A stretch of DNA of 64,000 nucleotides from Halomontanus rarus (GTDB lineage Archaea; Halobacteriota; Halobacteria; Halobacteriales; Natrialbaceae), in assembly GCF_017357405.1 (NCBI RefSeq), contig NZ_CP071597.1, forward strand, positions 930,001-994,000, in the 5' to 3' direction. Made by a program: the position numbers and the translations under genes. Every line of letters starts with the position of its first letter. Position 1 is the stretch's first letter. The notes beneath the pieces were generated by a model. It searched no databases and was not told the origin of the DNA. It saw only the letters and a program-made list of their open reading frames with translations. Positions 43,529-53,586 of this stretch are shown here, one piece after another.

Positions 43529-44356
43529 TCACGTTGGAAGTTCGCTCTCAGTTCCGGTTCCGGTTTCGCTCTCACTCTCCGTCTCGACCTCGCTCTCACC
43601 CGCGGTCCGCTCGTCGGCATCGTCGTCCCCGCCCTCGACCGCTTGGTCCCCTCGCAACCGCCGTTCGGCTTCGTCCCGGTCTTCGGGGTAGCCGACGTCG
43701 ACCCGCCAGCCCTCGAGTCGGATCGCGTCGATCGTCCGCCCGCTCTGGATCAACAGGTCGATCGCCTCGCTGATCTCGTACTCGCCGCGATTGGACGGCT
43801 GGACGAGGTGGCAGGCGTGGAAGATCGCCGGGGTGAAGGTGTAGAAGCCGGTCATCACGAGGTTCGACGGCGGATCGTCGGGTTTCTCGACGACGTCGGT
43901 GATCTCGCCGTACTTGTTGGTGTCACAGACGCCGTATCGGTCCGCTTCCTCCCACGGCACTTCTTCGACCAGAAACGCCGCGTCCGCTCGGTCTTCCTGC
44001 TGGCGACGGACGACGTCCTCGAGGTTGGCCTCGAAGACGTTGTCGCCGAGGATGAGCATGAAGTCGTCGTCGATGTGTTCTTCGACAGTCAACAGTGCGT
44101 GTGCGAGTCCGTTCTGCTCGCGCTGGTGGCAGTAGGTTATCGGCACGCCCTCGTAGTCGTCGCCGTAGTGGTCGATAATCTTCTCTTTGAGGTAGCCGAC
44201 GACGACGATGAGTTCGTCGGTTCCGAGCTCGACGAGACGATCGAAACAGTGTGTGATCAGCGGCTTTCCATCTACTTCGACCATCCCTTTTGGTTTGTCG
44301 TCGGTGAGCGGTCGAAGTCTGGTCCCCTTTCCGGCGGCGAGAACGACTGATTTCAC
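43529..44356 (-). CDS. Sugar-phosphate nucleotidyltransferase, paralogue 1
   Basis: A 275-residue enzyme of the RmlA/GlmU-N type, starting with GTG 44356 (VKSVVLAAGKGTRLRPLTDD). The nucleotide-binding motif AAGKGTRLRPLTDDKPKGM and product-site motifs ILGDNVFE and VVEKPDDPPSNLVMTGFY are present. Such enzymes make NDP-sugars from sugar-1-phosphate. The C-terminus has a 40-residue Glu/Ser-rich acidic tail absent from its paralogue at 57853. It lies 66 bases after the epimerase gene and is probably in its operon. The exact sugar is not readable (thymidylyl- or uridylyltransferase). Confidence 0.9.
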   Translation of the reverse strand: MKSVVLAAGKGTRLRPLTDDKPKGMVEVDGKPLITHCFDRLVELGTDELIVVVGYLKEKIIDHYGDDYEGVPITYCHQREQNGLAHALLTVEEHIDDDFMLILGDNVFEANLEDVVRRQQEDRADAAFLVEEVPWEEADRYGVCDTNKYGEITDVVEKPDDPPSNLVMTGFYTFTPAIFHACHLVQPSNRGEYEISEAIDLLIQSGRTIDAIRLEGWRVDVGYPEDRDEAERRLRGDQAVEGGDDDADERTAGESEVETESESETGTGTESELPT

Positions 44357-44421
44357 GGTTGTAAATCGCACAGTGTCGGCCCTCTTAGTACTTTTTTCAC
44401 CGGAAGCGACGGGTCGCGATC

Positions 44422-45411
44422 TCAGGAGTTGAGAACGAGCGGTTCGTACCACTCGCGGTTGGTTTCGTACCAGTCGATAAACTGGGAGACGCCCTCGCGG
44501 ATCGTCGTCGACGGCTCGTATCCCAGCAGTTCGTTGGCCTTCGAGACGTCCGCGTGAGTGTGCTGGGCGTCGCCGGTCGGTTGCTCGGCGAACTCGAGGC
44601 CGAGCGAGGGGTCGATCTCGTCTCGAACGACTTCCGCGAGCGTTCGGATGTCGATGTTGTCCGTGCTGCCGACGTTCAGAATCTCGCCGTCGGCGGCGTC
44701 CTCGTCCAGGAGCGTTCGGTTCACGTCCACGATGTCGTCAGTGTACGTGAAATCGCGCGTCTGCGTCCCGTCACCGTAGACCACCGGCGGTTCGCCGTTC
44801 AGACACCGTGAGACGAAGTTACTAAAGGCCATGTTCGGCCGCATGCGCGGACCGTAGACGGTGAAATACCGCAGCGAGACCGTCGGCAGCCCGTAGATTT
44901 CGTGGTAGACGCGAGTGTACTGCTCGGCTGCGAGTTTCGAGACGCCGTAGGGGCTCACCGGCGTCTTCGGGTGCTCCTCTTCGTAGGGCAGGTACTCGGG
45001 TTTGCCGTACACCGAGGAGGAACTGGCGAGGACGACGCGTCTGATCCCGTCGTGATCGCGTGCCGCGTCGAGGACGTTCAGCGTCCCGCCGACGTTGATG
45101 TCGTTGGGCTTGCGCGGATTGTCGACGCTCGTCCGCACCCCCGCCTGTGCGGCCTGGTGGTAGACGATATCGACCTGCGAGACCAACTCGGTGACGAGTT
45201 CCTGATCGCGAACGTCGCCCTCGACGAACTCGTAGGAGCCGTCGCTCTCGTCGGCCGTCTCCCGAGCAATCTCGATCGAGTGCTCTTTGATGCCGACGTC
45301 GTAGTAGGGGTCGAGGTTGTCGAGGACGACCACGTCGTGGCCGTCGGCGACGAACGCTTCCGCGAGGTTTCCACCGATGAATCCGGCACCGCCCGTGACG
45401 AGAATTCTCAT
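44422..45411 (-). CDS. NAD-dependent sugar-nucleotide epimerase (UDP-glucose 4-epimerase-like)
   Basis: A 329-residue short-chain dehydrogenase-type enzyme: Rossmann motif VTGGAGFIGGNLAE, substrate-side SSSSVYG and the catalytic Y-x3-K in SPYGVSKLAAEQ. Followed by LRYFTVYGPRMRPNMAFSNF, it fits the GalE/WbpP-like epimerase group that interconverts UDP-sugars. It precedes a nucleotidyltransferase gene in the same direction. It may supply UDP-galactose/glucose conversion for the galT-galK genes at 58.7-61.2 kb, or serve surface glycan synthesis. Confidence 0.88.
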   Translation of the reverse strand: MRILVTGGAGFIGGNLAEAFVADGHDVVVLDNLDPYYDVGIKEHSIEIARETADESDGSYEFVEGDVRDQELVTELVSQVDIVYHQAAQAGVRTSVDNPRKPNDINVGGTLNVLDAARDHDGIRRVVLASSSSVYGKPEYLPYEEEHPKTPVSPYGVSKLAAEQYTRVYHEIYGLPTVSLRYFTVYGPRMRPNMAFSNFVSRCLNGEPPVVYGDGTQTRDFTYTDDIVDVNRTLLDEDAADGEILNVGSTDNIDIRTLAEVVRDEIDPSLGLEFAEQPTGDAQHTHADVSKANELLGYEPSTTIREGVSQFIDWYETNREWYEPLVLNS

Positions 45412-45705
45412 CGCGTCCGTCTACGGGCCGTAATCTGATAAATGGCGCAGACTGATCGCTCCGGATGGCACACGGTCGCGGAACTGAAACGGACCACGCG
45501 TCGTCTCGATCGCGGTCGGAAGCAACCGGCTCGAGATGGATGAGCGGATTTCGACTGGGGTCGACGGTGTGAGTCCGCGGTTGAGTCGGATCTATGAGCC
45601 CGAACGTGGAGCACCGATCGGCCGATCGACGAGCAGTCCGATCGTCTAACGAGACTGTCCGTTCGGGGAGAATGTTTATACCTGCCCGATGGCCACGTCT
45701 GGTCA
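45412..45705. other. Divergent promoter region of epimerase and subtilase genes
   Basis: It holds TTTATA at 45675-45680 for the subtilase gene. I see no gene in these 294 bases. Confidence 0.5.
45675..45680 (+). promoter_or_regulatory. TATA box of the subtilase-cohesin operon
   Basis: TTTATA lies 26-31 bases before ATG 45706, the leaderless arrangement. Confidence 0.6.
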
Positions 45706-48700
45706 ATGCGAACGATGCCGGGCGACGGTCGGTCGAGAACCGCCGTAGTGCTGACCGCAGTAGTGATGCTCTCTCTGTCTCTCTCCCTGCCGCTTTTCGC
45801 GCCGATCGGAACTGGTGGTGCGACCAGTGGAAACACGGCGATGAACGATTCACTGGTCCCGGCTTCCGGTGGCGACCCGGCACCGCTGGACGCGGAACTC
45901 GAGACCGACGACGGAACGGTCGAGGTGCTCGTCCGACTCGAGGAAGTCGACCAGACGGTCCTCGCACGGAATCACGACGGCGTCGACGCGTTGCAATCAC
46001 ACGCGAACGCCACGCAGGAACCGTTCGAACGATACGTCGAGGCGACCGACGGAATCGAACTCGAGAACCGCTTTTGGCTCTCGAACGCCCTTCTGGTGAA
46101 CGTCGATACCGACACGCACGGCCTTGAGCGACTCGCCCGACTCGAGGGTGTTACGGGCGTGCACGCGAATCACGAGGTTCACCTTCCGGAGCCAGAACTG
46201 GCTCCCTCTACTGGGACGGCCGACTCGAGCGTCCAGGCGACCGCGTATCAGACGACGTACGGACTCGAACAGATCAACGCACCGGACGTCTGGGCCGACT
46301 ACGGGACGAAAGGCGAGGGCGTCTCAGTGGCGGTTCTCGACACCGGCGTCGACCCCGACCACCCGGATATCGAAATCGCCTCCGAGAACTGGGCGGAGTT
46401 TGAGCGTGACGGGAGTGAAGATACGGAGAGTACACCCTACGACACTCTGGGGCACGGAACGCACGTCTCCGGGACGGTGACCGGCGGCGACAGCTCGGGC
46501 GCGTATATCGGCGTCGCTCCCGGGGCGACGCTGATGCACGGCAAAGTACTCGGTGAGGATGGCGGCAACACTGCGCAGGTGATTGCCGGCATGGAGTGGG
46601 CCGTGCAAGCGGATGCCGACGTCATTAGTCTGAGTCTCGGCGCCGATGGATACGACGACACGCTCCTCGAGGCCGTTCAGAACGCCCACGCGGCGGACGT
46701 ACTCGTCGTCGCCGCCGCGGGGAACGCCGGTGAAGGGACGACGGGGTCACCGGCGAATTTGTACGACTCCTTCGCGATCGGTGCGTCCGACTCGGACGGG
46801 AATATCGCGGACTTCTCGGGCGGCGAAGAGATCGTCACGGACGACGTGTGGGATAGCCCGCCCGAACACTGGCCCGAGACGTACGTCGTTCCGGACGTCG
46901 CGGCGCCCGGAGTACGAATCGTCAGTTCGATCCCCGGTGGCGGCTACGAACGGCAGTCCGGGACGTCGATGGCAACACCGCACGTCTCCGGAACGGCCGC
47001 ACTGATGCTCGGCGCGTCGAACGGCGAACTCGAACTCGACGAGATCACGGCTAGCCTCGAGGAAACCGCCCGGAAACCCGACGGAGAACCCGAAGCGCAA
47101 GATGTTCGATACGGTCACGGAATCGTCGATGCGTTCGCGGCCACCGAACGCGCAGTCGCCGACAGTACCATCGCCGGGACGGTCACCGACGCCGACGGTA
47201 CCCCTCTCGAGAACGTGCGCGTCACACTCGAGACGGGACTGGGGACGACCACCGACGAGAACGGCGCGTACGAACTCTCTGCCCGGTCGGGTGAACGGAC
47301 CGTGACTGCCGAAAAATCCGGCTACAAAACCTCAGAGAGACGGATCACGGTCGAGGAGGGGGCGCGGACGACGCACGATATCTCGCTCGACGAGTTCCAC
47401 GACGTGGCATCGTTCTCCGGGACCGTCGACCTCGCCGGCGAACCGGCACCTGAAGGTACGACCGTGATCGCACACGTCGACGGCGAATCGCGAGGGACGA
47501 CGTCCGTCGCGACGGACGGCCGGTACGCCACCTCGTCTGATCCGCTGCTCGTCGACGGAGTGGCCGGCGACGACGAGGGACGGACGATCACCTTCACCGT
47601 CGACGGAATGCCCGTCGAAGAAACGGCGACGTGGGCGAACGGAACGACCGAGGACCTCGATCTCACCGTCGCCACGGGTGATCTCGAGGGAACGGTCACG
47701 GCCATATCCTATACCGAGCCGATCGCGGACGCGACGGTCGTCCTTCGAGATAGTCGCAGCACAGATGTCGACCGAGCGACGACGACCAAAACGGGCGCGT
47801 ACGAGTTCACGAACCTGGTCCCCGGCGAATACGCGATCGACGTCAGGGCACCCGGATTCGAGAGCGTGAACCGAGACGCACTCGAAGTGGACGGTGGCGT
47901 CGACGAGCCGCCGACGCGGGCGAACGTCTCGCTGTCGGGTGCCGCTTCGATCGTCGGAACCGTCGACGACGCGCTGAACGACCCGGTTGCGAACGCGACG
48001 GTCACGGCAACCGGCGAGTACGGCGCGTCCGAAACGACGACCGACGACGATGGAACGTACGGCTTCGACGACCTTCCGGGAACCGGCGGGTACACCGTGG
48101 AGGCGACAGCCGACGGTTACGTCGCCGCCAACGCGTCGACGCCGCTCGAGTCGAACGAGACGAAAACGGTCGATCTCACGCTCGACTACGAGGATGCGTT
48201 CTTCCATCTCACCGACCTCGAGGTGCCGGAGAGCGTCGACCAGGGTGAATCGGTCGTCGTGAACGCGACGATCGAGAACGTCGGCACGGCGAACGGGACG
48301 CGGACGGTGACGCTCGAAATCGTCGGCGAGAACGACACCGACGAGACCGTTCTCGAACTGGGCCCGGGAGAGGCCGAGACGGTGGGCCTCGAGTGGGCGA
48401 CCGGTGACGGCGATCTCGATTCCTACGACGTCACCGTCCGAACGGACGACGACGAGCGGTCGGCTTCCGTCGTCGTCAGAGCTCCCGACGGACCGCCGCC
48501 GATCGTCGGCGACGCACCACCGCAGGACACGACCGGTGACGGTCTGTACGACGATCTCAACGGGGACGGGGAGCTGACGGTGAGCGACGTGCAGGTACTC
48601 TACGACCGTTGCGATTCCGACGAAGTGCGAGCCCACGCGTACGCGTTCGACTTCAGCGGAAACGGTACCGTTAGCGTTCAGGATGTACAAGCGCTCTACA

Positions 48701-48720
48701 CACAACTGACGGAGGCCTGA
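45706..48720 (+). CDS. Secreted subtilisin-like protease with C-terminal dockerin
   Basis: A 1004-residue exported S8 protease. After a signal peptide (TAVVLTAVVMLSLSLSLPLF) come an I9-type propeptide, then the catalytic domain with D212 (AVLDTGVDPDHPD), H250 (GHGTHVSGT) and S421 (SGTSMATPHVSG). Next are about four carboxypeptidase-regulatory-like beta domains (TVTDADGTPLENVRV and similar), a CARDB-like domain (TIENVGTANGTRTVTL) and a C-terminal type I dockerin with two calcium-binding repeats: DLNGDGELTVSDVQVLYD and DFSGNGTVSVQDVQALYT. The next gene, overlapping by one base, encodes cohesin-like domains with a surface anchor. This suggests the protease is held on the cell surface through the dockerin. 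Confidence 0.9.
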   Translation: MRTMPGDGRSRTAVVLTAVVMLSLSLSLPLFAPIGTGGATSGNTAMNDSLVPASGGDPAPLDAELETDDGTVEVLVRLEEVDQTVLARNHDGVDALQSHANATQEPFERYVEATDGIELENRFWLSNALLVNVDTDTHGLERLARLEGVTGVHANHEVHLPEPELAPSTGTADSSVQATAYQTTYGLEQINAPDVWADYGTKGEGVSVAVLDTGVDPDHPDIEIASENWAEFERDGSEDTESTPYDTLGHGTHVSGTVTGGDSSGAYIGVAPGATLMHGKVLGEDGGNTAQVIAGMEWAVQADADVISLSLGADGYDDTLLEAVQNAHAADVLVVAAAGNAGEGTTGSPANLYDSFAIGASDSDGNIADFSGGEEIVTDDVWDSPPEHWPETYVVPDVAAPGVRIVSSIPGGGYERQSGTSMATPHVSGTAALMLGASNGELELDEITASLEETARKPDGEPEAQDVRYGHGIVDAFAATERAVADSTIAGTVTDADGTPLENVRVTLETGLGTTTDENGAYELSARSGERTVTAEKSGYKTSERRITVEEGARTTHDISLDEFHDVASFSGTVDLAGEPAPEGTTVIAHVDGESRGTTSVATDGRYATSSDPLLVDGVAGDDEGRTITFTVDGMPVEETATWANGTTEDLDLTVATGDLEGTVTAISYTEPIADATVVLRDSRSTDVDRATTTKTGAYEFTNLVPGEYAIDVRAPGFESVNRDALEVDGGVDEPPTRANVSLSGAASIVGTVDDALNDPVANATVTATGEYGASETTTDDDGTYGFDDLPGTGGYTVEATADGYVAANASTPLESNETKTVDLTLDYEDAFFHLTDLEVPESVDQGESVVVNATIENVGTANGTRTVTLEIVGENDTDETVLELGPGEAETVGLEWATGDGDLDSYDVTVRTDDDERSASVVVRAPDGPPPIVGDAPPQDTTGDGLYDDLNGDGELTVSDVQVLYDRCDSDEVRAHAYAFDFSGNGTVSVQDVQALYTQLTEA

Positions 48721-50246
48721 TGATGGGAGACACAGTCGAACGCTCGAACGGACGGACGGGACGTCGGCGACGATACCGCCTCGTCTTCGTCGTGATCGGA
48801 ATCTTCGTGTTCGCGGGGGGAGCAGTCGTTCCGGTCGGCGGCGCGCACGCGGCGAATACGGCAGTCGACGCGACGGACACGGCGAACACCACGGTCGACG
48901 TCGATATATCCACACCGGGATCGATCGAAGCCGGTACGACAGCGAACGCGACAGTGGTTGCCAGCGGTGCCGAGAACGGGATCAGTACGTACGAAGTCAC
49001 GGTGGCCGTCACCGACGCGAGCGTCGCCACGCTCGACGATGCCGAGGTTCACTCCCCAAGCGATGGCGACGGTCCGATCGCGGATATCGAGCCGGCAGCC
49101 GACGGCTCGGCACTCACGGTCACGGTCGCACTGCTGGATTCGACCCACGATCCGGCCGACGAGATCGAACTCTTCGACGTCGCGGTGACCGGGCAGGCTG
49201 GCGGTGAGACCGCTCTCGAGGTCACGGAGGTGCGGGACCTGTCGGATCTCGACGTCGACGAGTACGAGCTCGGTCAGCGCGGCGAGACGGCCGTAACGGT
49301 GGTCGATCCGGAGCAGACACTCGCGGTGTCCGGACCGGCGCAACTGGACGAGGGCGACAGCGCGAACGCGACGGTTTCGATAACGGGTGCCGACGACGGA
49401 ATCAGCGCGTACGAACTGACGCTCGCGGTCAACGACAGTGACCGTGCAACGCTAGGCAACGTCTCCGTCCACGCCGAGGGTGAGGACGGACCGATGGTCA
49501 CCACCGATCGTTCCGCGGACGGATCGAGCGTCACGGTCACCGCGGCGTTACTCGACGCCGTCCACGAACCGTCGGCGGAAACCGACCTGATCGACGTCAC
49601 GATCACCGGACGGGAAGCGGGGGCCGTCGAACTCGCGGTCACCGACGTCAGTGACGTGACGTCCCTCGACCACCGGCAGTACGACGTCAGTACGCGCACG
49701 CTGGTCGTCGACGTCACCGGTCGATCTGGCGGCGGCGGCTTCCAGCTTCCGGAACCGGCCGACACGTCGGACTCGAGCGACGACGAGCCGGCCGCCTTCG
49801 AACTCGGCCCCGTCGACAGTCCCGACGAGAGTACCGTCGGTGAGAACGTCTCGGTCGCCGTTCCGATCGAGAACGTCGGCGGGGAGGACGGAACTGTAAA
49901 CGTCTCCGTCTCCCTCGACGGGACCGTCTACGACGTCACGGGCGTTGCGGTCGCCAGCGGGACGACGGAGACTACCGTCGTCGACGTGACGATTCCCGAC
50001 CTTCCGGGCGAGTACCAACTCGTCGTTCGGGCGGCCGCCGACGAGTCCACGACCGTGCTGACGGCCGTCGACGACCGGACTGACCGAACGGATGCGAAAT
50101 CGACACCCGAAACCGAACCGACGGATTCGACCACCGACGAGGACGAATCGACGCCCGCCGGTGACAGCCTGCCCGGCTTCGGTGCGATCGCAGCGCTGGG
50201 GGCAGTTCTTGCGACGGTGGTCCTCCACCGACGGCGCGAAACGTAG
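48720..50246 (+). CDS. PGF-CTERM-anchored protein with two cohesin-like domains
   Basis: A 508-residue exported protein (ATG 48720 or 48723). After a signal helix (LVFVVIGIFVFAGGAVVPV) it has two homologous domains of about 130 residues: the first near ENGISTYEVTVAVTDASVAT, the second near DDGISAYELTLAVNDSDRAT. They resemble cohesins in their G-I-S-x-Y-E core and LFDVAVTGQAGG-type strand. A CARDB-like domain (ENVGGEDGTVNVSVSL), a Thr/Asp-rich linker and a PGF-CTERM signal (LPGFGAIAALGAVLATVVLH) follow. Encoded directly after a dockerin protease, it probably serves as its surface receptor. Confidence 0.75.
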   Translation: MMGDTVERSNGRTGRRRRYRLVFVVIGIFVFAGGAVVPVGGAHAANTAVDATDTANTTVDVDISTPGSIEAGTTANATVVASGAENGISTYEVTVAVTDASVATLDDAEVHSPSDGDGPIADIEPAADGSALTVTVALLDSTHDPADEIELFDVAVTGQAGGETALEVTEVRDLSDLDVDEYELGQRGETAVTVVDPEQTLAVSGPAQLDEGDSANATVSITGADDGISAYELTLAVNDSDRATLGNVSVHAEGEDGPMVTTDRSADGSSVTVTAALLDAVHEPSAETDLIDVTITGREAGAVELAVTDVSDVTSLDHRQYDVSTRTLVVDVTGRSGGGGFQLPEPADTSDSSDDEPAAFELGPVDSPDESTVGENVSVAVPIENVGGEDGTVNVSVSLDGTVYDVTGVAVASGTTETTVVDVTIPDLPGEYQLVVRAAADESTTVLTAVDDRTDRTDAKSTPETEPTDSTTDEDESTPAGDSLPGFGAIAALGAVLATVVLHRRRET

Positions 50247-51359: not shown

Positions 51360-53138
51360 TTACCCCCACCCGGATTTGTCGGAATGCTCTCGATCGGGGT
51401 CGTCGGAGCAGCTTCGCCACGGGTTGTCGGTTTCGTCTTCGGCGACGACCTCGAAGGGACGCATCATGTCGTGTTCCTCGTGCTCGAGGACGTGGCAGTG
51501 GAACGGGTACGTTCCGGGGAAGTCCCCGAACTGTACCGCGATTCGGACGGTCTCGCCCGGGTTGACCCGAACGACGTCCTTGCCGCCTCGCTCGTTCGGA
51601 AGGGGACCCGTCGAGTGGTCCGTGTCGTGCCCGTCCTCACCTTCCGTATCACCGTGGTCGCCGTGGCGTTCGCGATCGATGACCTCGAACTCGACGAGGT
51701 GGAGGTGGATCGGGTGGGTGTGATGATCGTCGTTTACGAGTTCCCAGATTTCGGTCGATCCGAGCTCCGGTTGGAAGTCTACGGGGTCACCCCAGCGCTT
51801 GCCGTTCAGCGTGTGGATCATGAGACCATTGTCCATGTCCATGTCCATCTCCATGGTAACCTCCCGCGTCACCTCCGCGTCGTCCGGATCCGGACCGTTG
51901 CGCTCCGGAAGCGTCAGGTTGGTGGGGTCGACACTAGTATCCGGTCGCTCGAGTTCGTCGGCCACCTGAATCTGCATGATTTCGGGAAGCTGAGGATGGC
52001 TCTCAGTATTGTCACCGTGGTCCATGCCACCCGCGTACGGGAACTCGGCGTCGTTGGTGACGGTGAGCGTCTCCCCGGCGTACTCGGAGAAGTCGACGAT
52101 GACGTCCGCTCGCTCGAACGGAGCTAGCACGAGCGAGTGGAGGTCCCCGTGGTGGTCGATGGAAACGACCTCCTCCAGGAACCCGTGACCTGGCGAAATC
52201 TGATGGATGGTTGGGACGCTACCGTGCGCGACACTGTCGTCGTTGTCCAGGCCAAGGTCGTACGTCCGGGCGTTGGACGCGTTGATGATCCGGAACCGGT
52301 ACCGTCTGGGCTCGACCTCGAGCGAGGGCCACGCGGCCCCGTTGACGGTTGCGGTGTCTCCGCTGACGTTTGCCATGAACATCTTCGGGTACTGGAGCGA
52401 GCCGTCCTCGTCGAACGACCGATCAGCCAGCACGAGCGGAATGTCGTACTCGCCGTCCGGCAGGTTGAGTCGCTTTTCCTCGCGGCTTCGGATGTAGTAG
52501 GGACCCACCAGCCCGGCGTAGTTGTTGAGTCGGGTCAGTCCTCGAGTGTGATCGTGGTACGTCGACGTCAGTCGGGACTGTCGGTTCGGGAGCACCTGGA
52601 CGTCCCTGGCACGTCGGGGACCCTCGACCCCGTCGGGGGAGATCCACATGTCGGCCTGACCGTCGCTCTCGGGCGGGACGTTGAGTCCGTGAAAGTGAGT
52701 GGAGTTGCGCACCTCCGGGACCTCACCGTCGTAGCCGACGTAGTTCTCCGTGGTTGTCCCGTCGATTCGCTCGTCCACCTCGAACAGGTGCTCGTCCGGA
52801 AGTTGGCTGTTGTCGACTTCGACCGCCAGCGGCCGTCCGCGACGACCCGCGATGATCGGGCCGGGGAACTGGCCGTCGAATCCCCAGATTACGGTGTCCG
52901 GGAGGTCGGGATGGAAACTGTGCGTTGTTTCCTGTATCTCGACCTCGTGATGCTCGACGCCCCATCGTCTACTGTCGGGTTCCCGTTCCTCTGGAATCGG
53001 CAAGGACTGGACGTACTTCTCGAGATCGGGCGACGATTCCTCCCCCATGGCCACCGCACCTGAAACTCCCGTAACTCCGAGAAGACCAGCCACCCCCCCT
53101 GCAGCGAGCAACTTTCTTCTGGATATCTGGTCAGTCAT
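51360..53138 (-). CDS. Multicopper oxidase, laccase/CotA-like, Tat-exported
   Basis: A 592-residue protein starting at ATG 53138 (MTDQISRRKLLAAGG), with the Tat motif SRRKLL. Three cupredoxin-like domains and the four copper motifs are visible: STHFHGLNVP, TYHDHTRGL, HPIHLHLVEFEV and PFHCHVLEHEEHDMM. It probably oxidises phenols, metal ions or, like bilirubin oxidase/CotA, other donors while reducing oxygen to water. The loop VTMEMDMDMDNGLM is Met/Asp-rich and another loop is His/Asp-rich (RERHGDHGDTEGEDGHDTDH), both possible extra metal sites. A chemotaxis transducer gene is divergent from it. Confidence 0.9.
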   Translation of the reverse strand: MTDQISRRKLLAAGGVAGLLGVTGVSGAVAMGEESSPDLEKYVQSLPIPEEREPDSRRWGVEHHEVEIQETTHSFHPDLPDTVIWGFDGQFPGPIIAGRRGRPLAVEVDNSQLPDEHLFEVDERIDGTTTENYVGYDGEVPEVRNSTHFHGLNVPPESDGQADMWISPDGVEGPRRARDVQVLPNRQSRLTSTYHDHTRGLTRLNNYAGLVGPYYIRSREEKRLNLPDGEYDIPLVLADRSFDEDGSLQYPKMFMANVSGDTATVNGAAWPSLEVEPRRYRFRIINASNARTYDLGLDNDDSVAHGSVPTIHQISPGHGFLEEVVSIDHHGDLHSLVLAPFERADVIVDFSEYAGETLTVTNDAEFPYAGGMDHGDNTESHPQLPEIMQIQVADELERPDTSVDPTNLTLPERNGPDPDDAEVTREVTMEMDMDMDNGLMIHTLNGKRWGDPVDFQPELGSTEIWELVNDDHHTHPIHLHLVEFEVIDRERHGDHGDTEGEDGHDTDHSTGPLPNERGGKDVVRVNPGETVRIAVQFGDFPGTYPFHCHVLEHEEHDMMRPFEVVAEDETDNPWRSCSDDPDREHSDKSGWG

Positions 53139-53586
53139 TTCAATCGATAATTGTAGCCCCATGTAATATAGTTTGCCAGTGAATATCTTCTAATTGGTTG
53201 GCTATTTGCTAGAAGTATTTATTATTTAGCCAAACATTAGAACTCGGATCGCGGGAAAATACTGGCGTAGATACGAAGTGGATATCCGTATAGTGAACGG
53301 TCCTCTTCGATTGTCATCTACATCTCTCCTCTCGGAAAAGATACATACCGACTCAGCCCCGCAAAGTCAAGGGCTGGATGGTGACATATGGAATTATAGG
53401 TGTGTCCAGTGGCGAATTTGTCGAACATTCGAGACGAACGATACGAGTATAAAACCGCGGTTTGGTATCCAGACCGGAATTCGACGGTTCTGCCTATTCA
53501 GCCACTGAGAGACGTGTCATATCCCGAATCATATCGTTCGCTGACGAGAAATTATTTAATCCATTACTGTATTGGTGCCAGTAAAC
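53139..53586. other. Divergent intergenic region between the multicopper oxidase and transducer genes
   Basis: It contains TATA elements for both sides: CTATATTA (minus strand, 53164-53171) 26-33 bases before the oxidase start, and TTATTTAAT (53552-53560) before the transducer start. The middle part is AT-rich without recognisable genes. Confidence 0.6.

Follow-up and report, generated by a model that had tools for sequence, protein, structure and literature searches.

Does a secreted protease of the haloarchaeon Halomontanus rarus sit on a surface anchor encoded by the very next gene? The question is raised by two genes in a 64,000-nucleotide stretch of contig NZ_CP071597.1 (assembly GCF_017357405.1, positions 930,001 to 994,000 of the forward strand), which is called the window here and whose coordinates are used unless another locus is named. 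Gene 1 (45706..48720) encodes an S8 subtilase with a C-terminal dockerin, and gene 2 (48720..50246) encodes an anchor protein with two cohesin-like domains; both genes, and all features described within and before them, lie on the forward strand. A preliminary description of the locus had read the two as a dockerin and cohesin-like anchor pair, and that reading is supported. Judging from domains, predicted folds and gene neighbours, the products of the two genes rather probably form a docked protease at the cell surface, the subtilase being held on the neighbouring anchor.

The open reading frame of gene 1 has 1004 residues and is predicted to be secreted, with a hydrophobic signal stretch read at its N-terminus. 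The Peptidase_S8 catalytic domain (residues 203-472, 46312..47121) matches PF00082 with 180.3 bits against a Pfam cut-off of 21.8, and all three Asp-His-Ser motifs are complete (VLDTG at 210, GHGTH at 249 and SGTSMA at 418). The best of three CarboxypepD_reg beta-sandwich matches (PF13620) covers residues 488-561 (47167..47388), and a CARDB domain (PF07705, residues 837-916, 48214..48453) stands directly before the dockerin. Halolysins are haloarchaeal secreted subtilases with an S8 catalytic domain and a C-terminal extension; the gene 1 protein resembles them in both respects, and unlike theirs its extension ends in a dockerin. That dockerin (48499..48708) has two complete F-hand-type loops of the DxNxDGxxxxxD kind about 30 residues apart: loop 1, DLNGDGELTVSD (residues 950-961, 48553-48588), and loop 2, DFSGNGTVSVQD (residues 982-993, 48649-48684). 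The two calcium repeats that the preliminary description had seen at the end of the protease are therefore both whole, and a dockerin profile made from 30 dockerin C-termini of the host genome, the window dockerin included, scores the region at 96 bits.

The protein of gene 2 has 508 residues and an N-terminus that is basic and then hydrophobic. The two domains that had been called cohesin-like are found as two repeats of about 140 residues each, D1 (48882..49307) and D2 (49308..49721), which share 60 of 135 aligned residues and score 175 and 171 bits in a profile search. A CARDB domain follows (residues 367-446, 49818..50057; PF07705, 23.6 bits against a cut-off of 22.7). The PGF-CTERM anchor of the preliminary description is present as a PGF-CTERM-like tail, consisting of PGF, a hydrophobic stretch and an Arg-rich end (50172..50243), which scores just under the cut-offs of both families searched (TIGR04126 of NCBIfam, 21.3 against 24.5; PF18204 of Pfam, 15.7 against 18.8). 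The host genome encodes the archaeosortase ArtA (TIGR04125, 319 bits, C1:1152239-1153078).

The preliminary description had made its reading depend on these domains of some 130 residues having a cohesin fold. D1 is predicted by AlphaFold to adopt the cohesin beta-sandwich, with a predicted local distance difference test score (pLDDT) of 80.5 and a predicted template modelling score (pTM) of 0.78 for the best model. In a Foldseek search with that model, 31 cohesin chains rank ahead of every other fold, and YcnI chains enter the list from rank 32. The possibility that the repeats are only a CARDB- or integrin-type sandwich was rejected, as integrins appear from rank 42 and CARDB at rank 46, all weaker than the cohesins. 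By prediction, then, the check favours the reading; D2 would share the fold. Compared profile to profile, the cohesin-like domains (profile A1) match accepted cohesins (profile A4) at 81% with an E-value of 1.2e-5.

The two genes overlap by one base, as had been described: the TGA stop of gene 1 occupies 48718-48720, the ATG of gene 2 begins at 48720, and the open reading frames agree with both. A Shine-Dalgarno-like GGAGG (48711..48715) stands shortly before the overlapping stop and start, where it may allow translational coupling, and a TATA-like box, TTTATA (45675..45680), ends 25 bases before the gene 1 ATG and may be part of a leaderless-type promoter. Taken together, the overlap, the GGAGG and the box suggest a single transcription unit in which the two genes are coupled.

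Natronoglomus mannanivorans, a sister species in the same genus, has the pair as well, and there a twin-arginine translocation (TAT)-type protein with the same kind of ending follows it in unchanged order. A scan of genome contigs with the full gene 2 protein gave no match, and a closer alignment (A3) matched three N. mannanivorans loci. In this species the signal-peptide and cohesin frames of the second anchor differ (L102:8782-9000), an apparent frameshift or assembly error. Residues 1-480 of the subtilase match 25 open reading frames in related loci (one in two pieces), that of the sister species being 73.6% identical and the others 37-52%, and homologous subtilases in other genomes bear Pfam-grade dockerins. 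Of 391 genomes of the class, 148 have a match to profile A1 at an E-value of 1e-5. Among 30 listed loci, the window included, no more than 1.5 kb separates the anchor cohesin from a dockerin in 28 of the 29 outside the window, the exception being in genome G096; 27 of them are labelled PhoX-type by dockerin and cohesin kinship, Pfam having been run on the PhoX of the host genome alone. Chance neighbourhood was rejected in view of the sister-species pair and of these dockerins beside anchors.

What is observed, namely the genes and their domains, the predicted D1 fold, the conservation, the dockerin and anchor clades described below and the presence of ArtA, points to the following as the most likely mechanism. 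Gene 1 would yield an exported, active subtilase, and the gene 2 protein would be exported through its own signal stretch. ArtA enzymes cut the tail of their substrates and link it to lipid; processing of the PGF-CTERM-like tail in this way would fix the anchor to the envelope. The calcium-loop dockerin would then be held by D1 or D2, presumably in a calcium-dependent manner, so that each anchor at the cell surface might carry one or two proteases; the two docking places of the preliminary description are kept here in this conditional sense. The overlap and the shared promoter would keep both proteins in step, and the benefit would be peptides released beside the cell. D1 and D2 may favour different guests, for example P0006, a protein of the host genome described next, as the second.

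A search for further dockerin genes, which the preliminary description had proposed as a check, found PF00404 at 31 places in the host genome at an E-value of 10 or less. Thirteen are above the cut-off (11 alone and 2 with neighbours in frame), and all 31 C-termini show two loops when read by eye, the second loop of P0006 being irregular. P0006 (MG2, PKD, dockerin) overlaps by four bases P0003, which has one cohesin-like domain, five CARDB stretches and a PGF-CTERM match under the cut-off. Thirteen of the 31 dockerins lie in a 39-kb glycosidase cluster (C1:1620881-1659797), where ten of the dockerin proteins have a glycosidase domain above the Pfam cut-off (GH5, GH10, GH81, GH2), one has a glycosidase match below it and two have none. 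A decayed dockerin-like fragment lies directly ahead of the first gene of this cluster (L053:4427-4582, forward strand).

Within the cluster is P0001, a 2096-residue GH5 protein whose ten cohesin-like repeats are matched by the window D1 (L053:7180-13467, C1:1623179-1629466, forward strand). No cohesin is seen in these repeats by Pfam, and no dockerin in P0001 by the own-genome dockerin profile. Its domains and its place amid 13 dockerin genes make P0001 a likely haloarchaeal scaffoldin. The same cluster holds P0002, with one cohesin-like domain and a PGF-like tail. A scan of the whole host genome with A1 gave 18 matches at an E-value of 10 or less. The window accounts for two of these and P0001 for ten; P0002, P0003 and the anchor linked to PhoX have one apiece, and the other three, which are weaker, fall within dockerin proteins. 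Outside dockerin proteins there are five loci with cohesins or cohesin-like domains (the window, P0003, P0001 with P0002, the PhoX anchor, and P0004), and four are directly at dockerin genes; the exception is P0004, an isolated PF00963 protein (E-value 2.9e-7). The PhoX locus consists of a phosphatase with a dockerin and then a one-cohesin anchor gene.

As for the marks of a cellulosome, a scaffoldin with several cohesins is found at genome level in P0001, with cohesin-like domains (the window anchor has two), and plant-polymer enzymes with dockerins are also found at genome level (GH5, GH10, GH81, GH26 and RGL11), the window enzyme being a protease. Besides the window pair, the host genome carries plug-like and socket-like domains in greater number on enzymes for plant fibre, an ensemble that resembles a cellulosome. 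The preliminary description had called the pair an archaeal, non-cellulosomal docking system; archaeal it is, and the second adjective fails in part, given a ten-domain GH5 protein among dockerin glycosidases in the same genome and, in another genus, scaffoldins ringed by dockerin subtilases.

The latter belong to two clusters, in genomes G031 and G029. Ten chosen proteins of G031 (L156, L157) comprise eight with S8 and dockerin domains, one that joins two cohesins to a dockerin, and one with 14 Pfam cohesins; nine chosen proteins of G029 (L154, L155) comprise five with S8 and dockerin domains, one with eight cohesins, two with one cohesin (one of them with a dockerin), and a ninth in which Pfam found no match at 0.001. 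From their domain make-up, these clusters may be a protease-built analogue of the cellulosome. Nine subtilase loci outside such clusters were sampled (L146-L152, L164, L165): a separate downstream cohesin gene is present in three (L146, L148, L165), in L147, L149, L152 and L164 the cohesin is solely inside the subtilase, and in L150 and L151 the profiles used found no cohesin. The dockerin clusters of four other haloarchaeal genomes contain proteins that combine two or three divergent cohesins with fn3 and PKD domains and in which a CBM5/12 match stays under its cut-off (19.8-24.0 against 26.2 bits). Among 125 genomes of the family, Dockerin_1 matches 55 at an E-value of 1e-3 and Cohesin PF00963 matches at least 111, a lower bound since the host genome is not counted among them in spite of P0004; many PF00963 cohesins accordingly have no obvious partner.

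Trees of both domains were built, each with 105 rows and on few columns. Four dockerin fragments shorter than 58 residues, duplicates L166-L168 and PF00963-type loci were excluded from the one, and domains shorter than 90 residues and L166-L168 from the other. The window dockerin, its orthologue, that of P0006 and that of the partner in L102 form a clade with a Shimodaira-Hasegawa approximate likelihood ratio test (SH-aLRT) support of 98, two of its branches being long, and the PhoX and PhoD dockerins form a separate clade (99). In the cohesin tree the window-group anchors and two unpaired anchors form a clade (100), and the scaffoldin repeats with P0002 form their own (88). D1 groups with the sister-species D1 (97) and D2 with the sister-species D2 (99), so each domain has a history of its own, and affinity or partner may not be the same for the two. 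These clades suggest that a recognition class of its own probably serves the pair; one further pair in the genome would share it, and the GH5 scaffoldin with its glycosidases and the PhoX pair would each belong to another class. Distances between dockerins correlate with those between cohesins: seven own-genus pairs give r 0.93, a value reached by 4 of 5000 permutations, the full set of 40 pairs gives r 0.95 (0 of 5000), and 14 pairs left after PhoX was thinned give r 0.78 (0 of 5000). These values are inflated by shared descent and by our choice of partners in the glycosidase clusters.

That inflation is one of several points that weigh against a docked protease with its own class. When PhoX is left out, the correlation drops to r 0.71 (10 pairs, 1 of 5000). 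The deep forks of the two trees disagree, with deep supports of 80-92, and in the dockerin tree the subtilase clade lies closer to glycosidase dockerins from other genera, but in the cohesin tree its anchors lie closer to the scaffoldin of their own genus. The glycosidase dockerins of the genus fall into more than one clade (those of the cluster require five changes, those from the rest of the genome eight). Two of the six window-clade anchors (L103, L106) have no dockerin gene in the surrounding 19 kb, and the orthologous anchor in the sister species reads AGF instead of PGF. As for the domains themselves, PF00404 Dockerin_1 stays under its cut-off of 22.9 on the subtilase (14.7 bits on the protein, 21.0 on the DNA), the AlphaFold model of this dockerin is weak (pLDDT 52.3, from a three-sequence alignment), and a dockerin profile finds EF-hand proteins in PDB (E-value 7e-9) ahead of dockerins (1e-3). 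PF00963 matches neither D1 nor D2 even at an E-value of 10, and for that reason they are named cohesin-like here and not assigned to that family. Neither profile A1 nor the whole gene 2 protein found a cohesin among PDB sequences, so structure prediction was needed; two of the five AlphaFold models of D1 are confident (pLDDT 80.5 and 80.3, the others 64.3, 56.6 and 55.8). The narrower profile A2, of nine sequences, matches A4 at just 51% (E-value 1.5e-4, 41 columns).

Docking could be real and the pairing different, with the subtilase on the GH5 scaffoldin or on another anchor, or with promiscuous cohesins that make the window anchor a shared socket. The cohesin-like domains are all one homologous family, dockerins from four loci of the host genome are 36-50% identical, and the match of the two trees is imperfect. 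Positions 10 and 11 of the loops, which we take to be the specificity positions, are not uniform within the window group (VS/VQ in the subtilase, IV in P0006, AA in L102) and were dropped as an argument for a class; they are nevertheless unlike those of many cluster glycosidase dockerins (TT/VT) and of PhoX (YD/YD). As window-group dockerins and anchors each form a clade, a different pairing seems unlikely. Gene 2 might instead act on the protease through its product, as chaperone, inhibitor or activator, with the cohesin-fold domains touching the catalytic part and the dockerin incidental. Overlapping genes often code for regulatory partners, and the overlap here is one base; but the same type of anchor is encoded beside such unrelated partners as PhoX, the MG2/PKD protein and glycosidases, whose common feature is the dockerin, and this role for gene 2 is very improbable.

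A third possibility is that nothing docks: the dockerin would be a calcium-dependent module for stability or substrate binding, and gene 2 an independent beta-sandwich surface protein. This is close to the published view of N. mannanivorans dockerins. In the available passages of PMC10963439 the GH26 dockerin is credited with a part in substrate binding, and the word dockerin occurs four times and cohesin or cellulosom never; the available part of PMC13260240 (2026) repeats the role. The first rank of EF-hand proteins in the PDB search fits such a module too. A substrate-binding domain, however, needs no cohesin-fold partner, and such partners adjoin repeatedly (the 28 of 29 loci in other genomes), and multi-cohesin proteins sit within dockerin clusters. 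On balance the absence of any docking appears quite unlikely, and we continue with the subtilase docked on its neighbouring anchor.

How does such a pair compare with known systems? Peer et al. 2009 is said to be a survey of archaeal non-cellulosomal cohesins. The non-cellulosomal cohesin and dockerin of Archaeoglobus fulgidus (PDB 2xdh) are a close known system, from which the window differs in its subtilase partner, two tandem cohesin-like domains and PGF-CTERM-like tail, and the host genome in adding a GH5 protein with ten cohesin-like domains. With the clostridial (type I) cellulosome there are in common a cohesin fold (predicted), an F-hand dockerin and a scaffoldin-like protein beside dockerin enzymes. 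In contrast to it, the window pair has neither a glycosidase nor a carbohydrate-binding module (CBM), its cohesins escape PF00963, anchoring would be PGF-CTERM-like instead of by S-layer homology (SLH) domains or sortase, and P0001 has no dockerin by profile. Anaerobic methanotrophic (ANME) archaea likewise have numerous dockerin and cohesin proteins and scaffoldin-like proteins; according to the accessible portion of PMC9012536, a comparative genomics study of 2022, these have up to five cohesins, against 8 to 14 in haloarchaeal proteins, and the dockerins are commonly on substrate-binding parts of ABC transporters, whereas haloarchaea have them on proteases, phosphatases and glycosidases. 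With reference to earlier studies, the same portion says that archaea in which these domains occur had no large multi-cohesin scaffoldins.

In the excerpts available of PMC10267330, on cellulose-using haloarchaea, GH5 proteins of up to 2,101 residues have "yet undetectable domains", neither dockerin nor cohesin is mentioned, and the cellulosome appears solely as a bacterial mechanism. Divergent cohesin-like repeats could explain both these undetectable domains and the reading of the N. mannanivorans dockerin in the passages of PMC10963439. The words dockerin, cohesin, cellulosom and scaffold are all absent from PMC12343721 and PMC9726719, the dockerin passage in the part of PMC11700989 at hand is about bacteria, and in the part at hand of a 2025 cellulosome review (PMC12484212) no word starts with "archaea", A. 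fulgidus figuring just as a source of pairs. The word dockerin has a count of zero in each of the two halolysin papers at the top of the matches listed, and among the titles listed from the open-licence literature none concerns a haloarchaeal scaffoldin or a dockerin halolysin.

If the docking is true, cellulosome-type assembly exists in extremely halophilic archaea, proteases included, salt-proof binding pairs become available for engineering, and there is a simple test of how calcium-dependent docking survives concentrated salt. There is about an even chance that the picture is wider: that haloarchaea build true cellulosome-type machines, some of proteases only; that a divergent, Pfam-invisible and a Pfam-visible cohesin family each gave scaffoldins (of 10 domains, and of 14 and 8), those of the latter ringed by at least eight dockerin subtilases; that a single cell keeps protease, phosphatase and glycosidases apart by at least three cohesin-dockerin codes; and that the window pair is the two-socket, cell-bound member of this system.

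Some smaller observations were made along the way. At L057:5567-6387 (reverse strand) the PhoX has an internal cohesin-like domain as well as a dockerin and is then followed by a one-cohesin anchor gene, a layout that recurs in 27 loci (L169-L195); a chain with both domains could self-assemble. Elsewhere a one-cohesin PF00963 protein adjoins a DUF7350 protein (L059:8955-9797 and kin). Within the window, the pair is flanked at 43529-45411 and 51360-53162 by a nucleotidyl transferase, a GDP-mannose dehydratase/epimerase-type enzyme and a multicopper oxidase.

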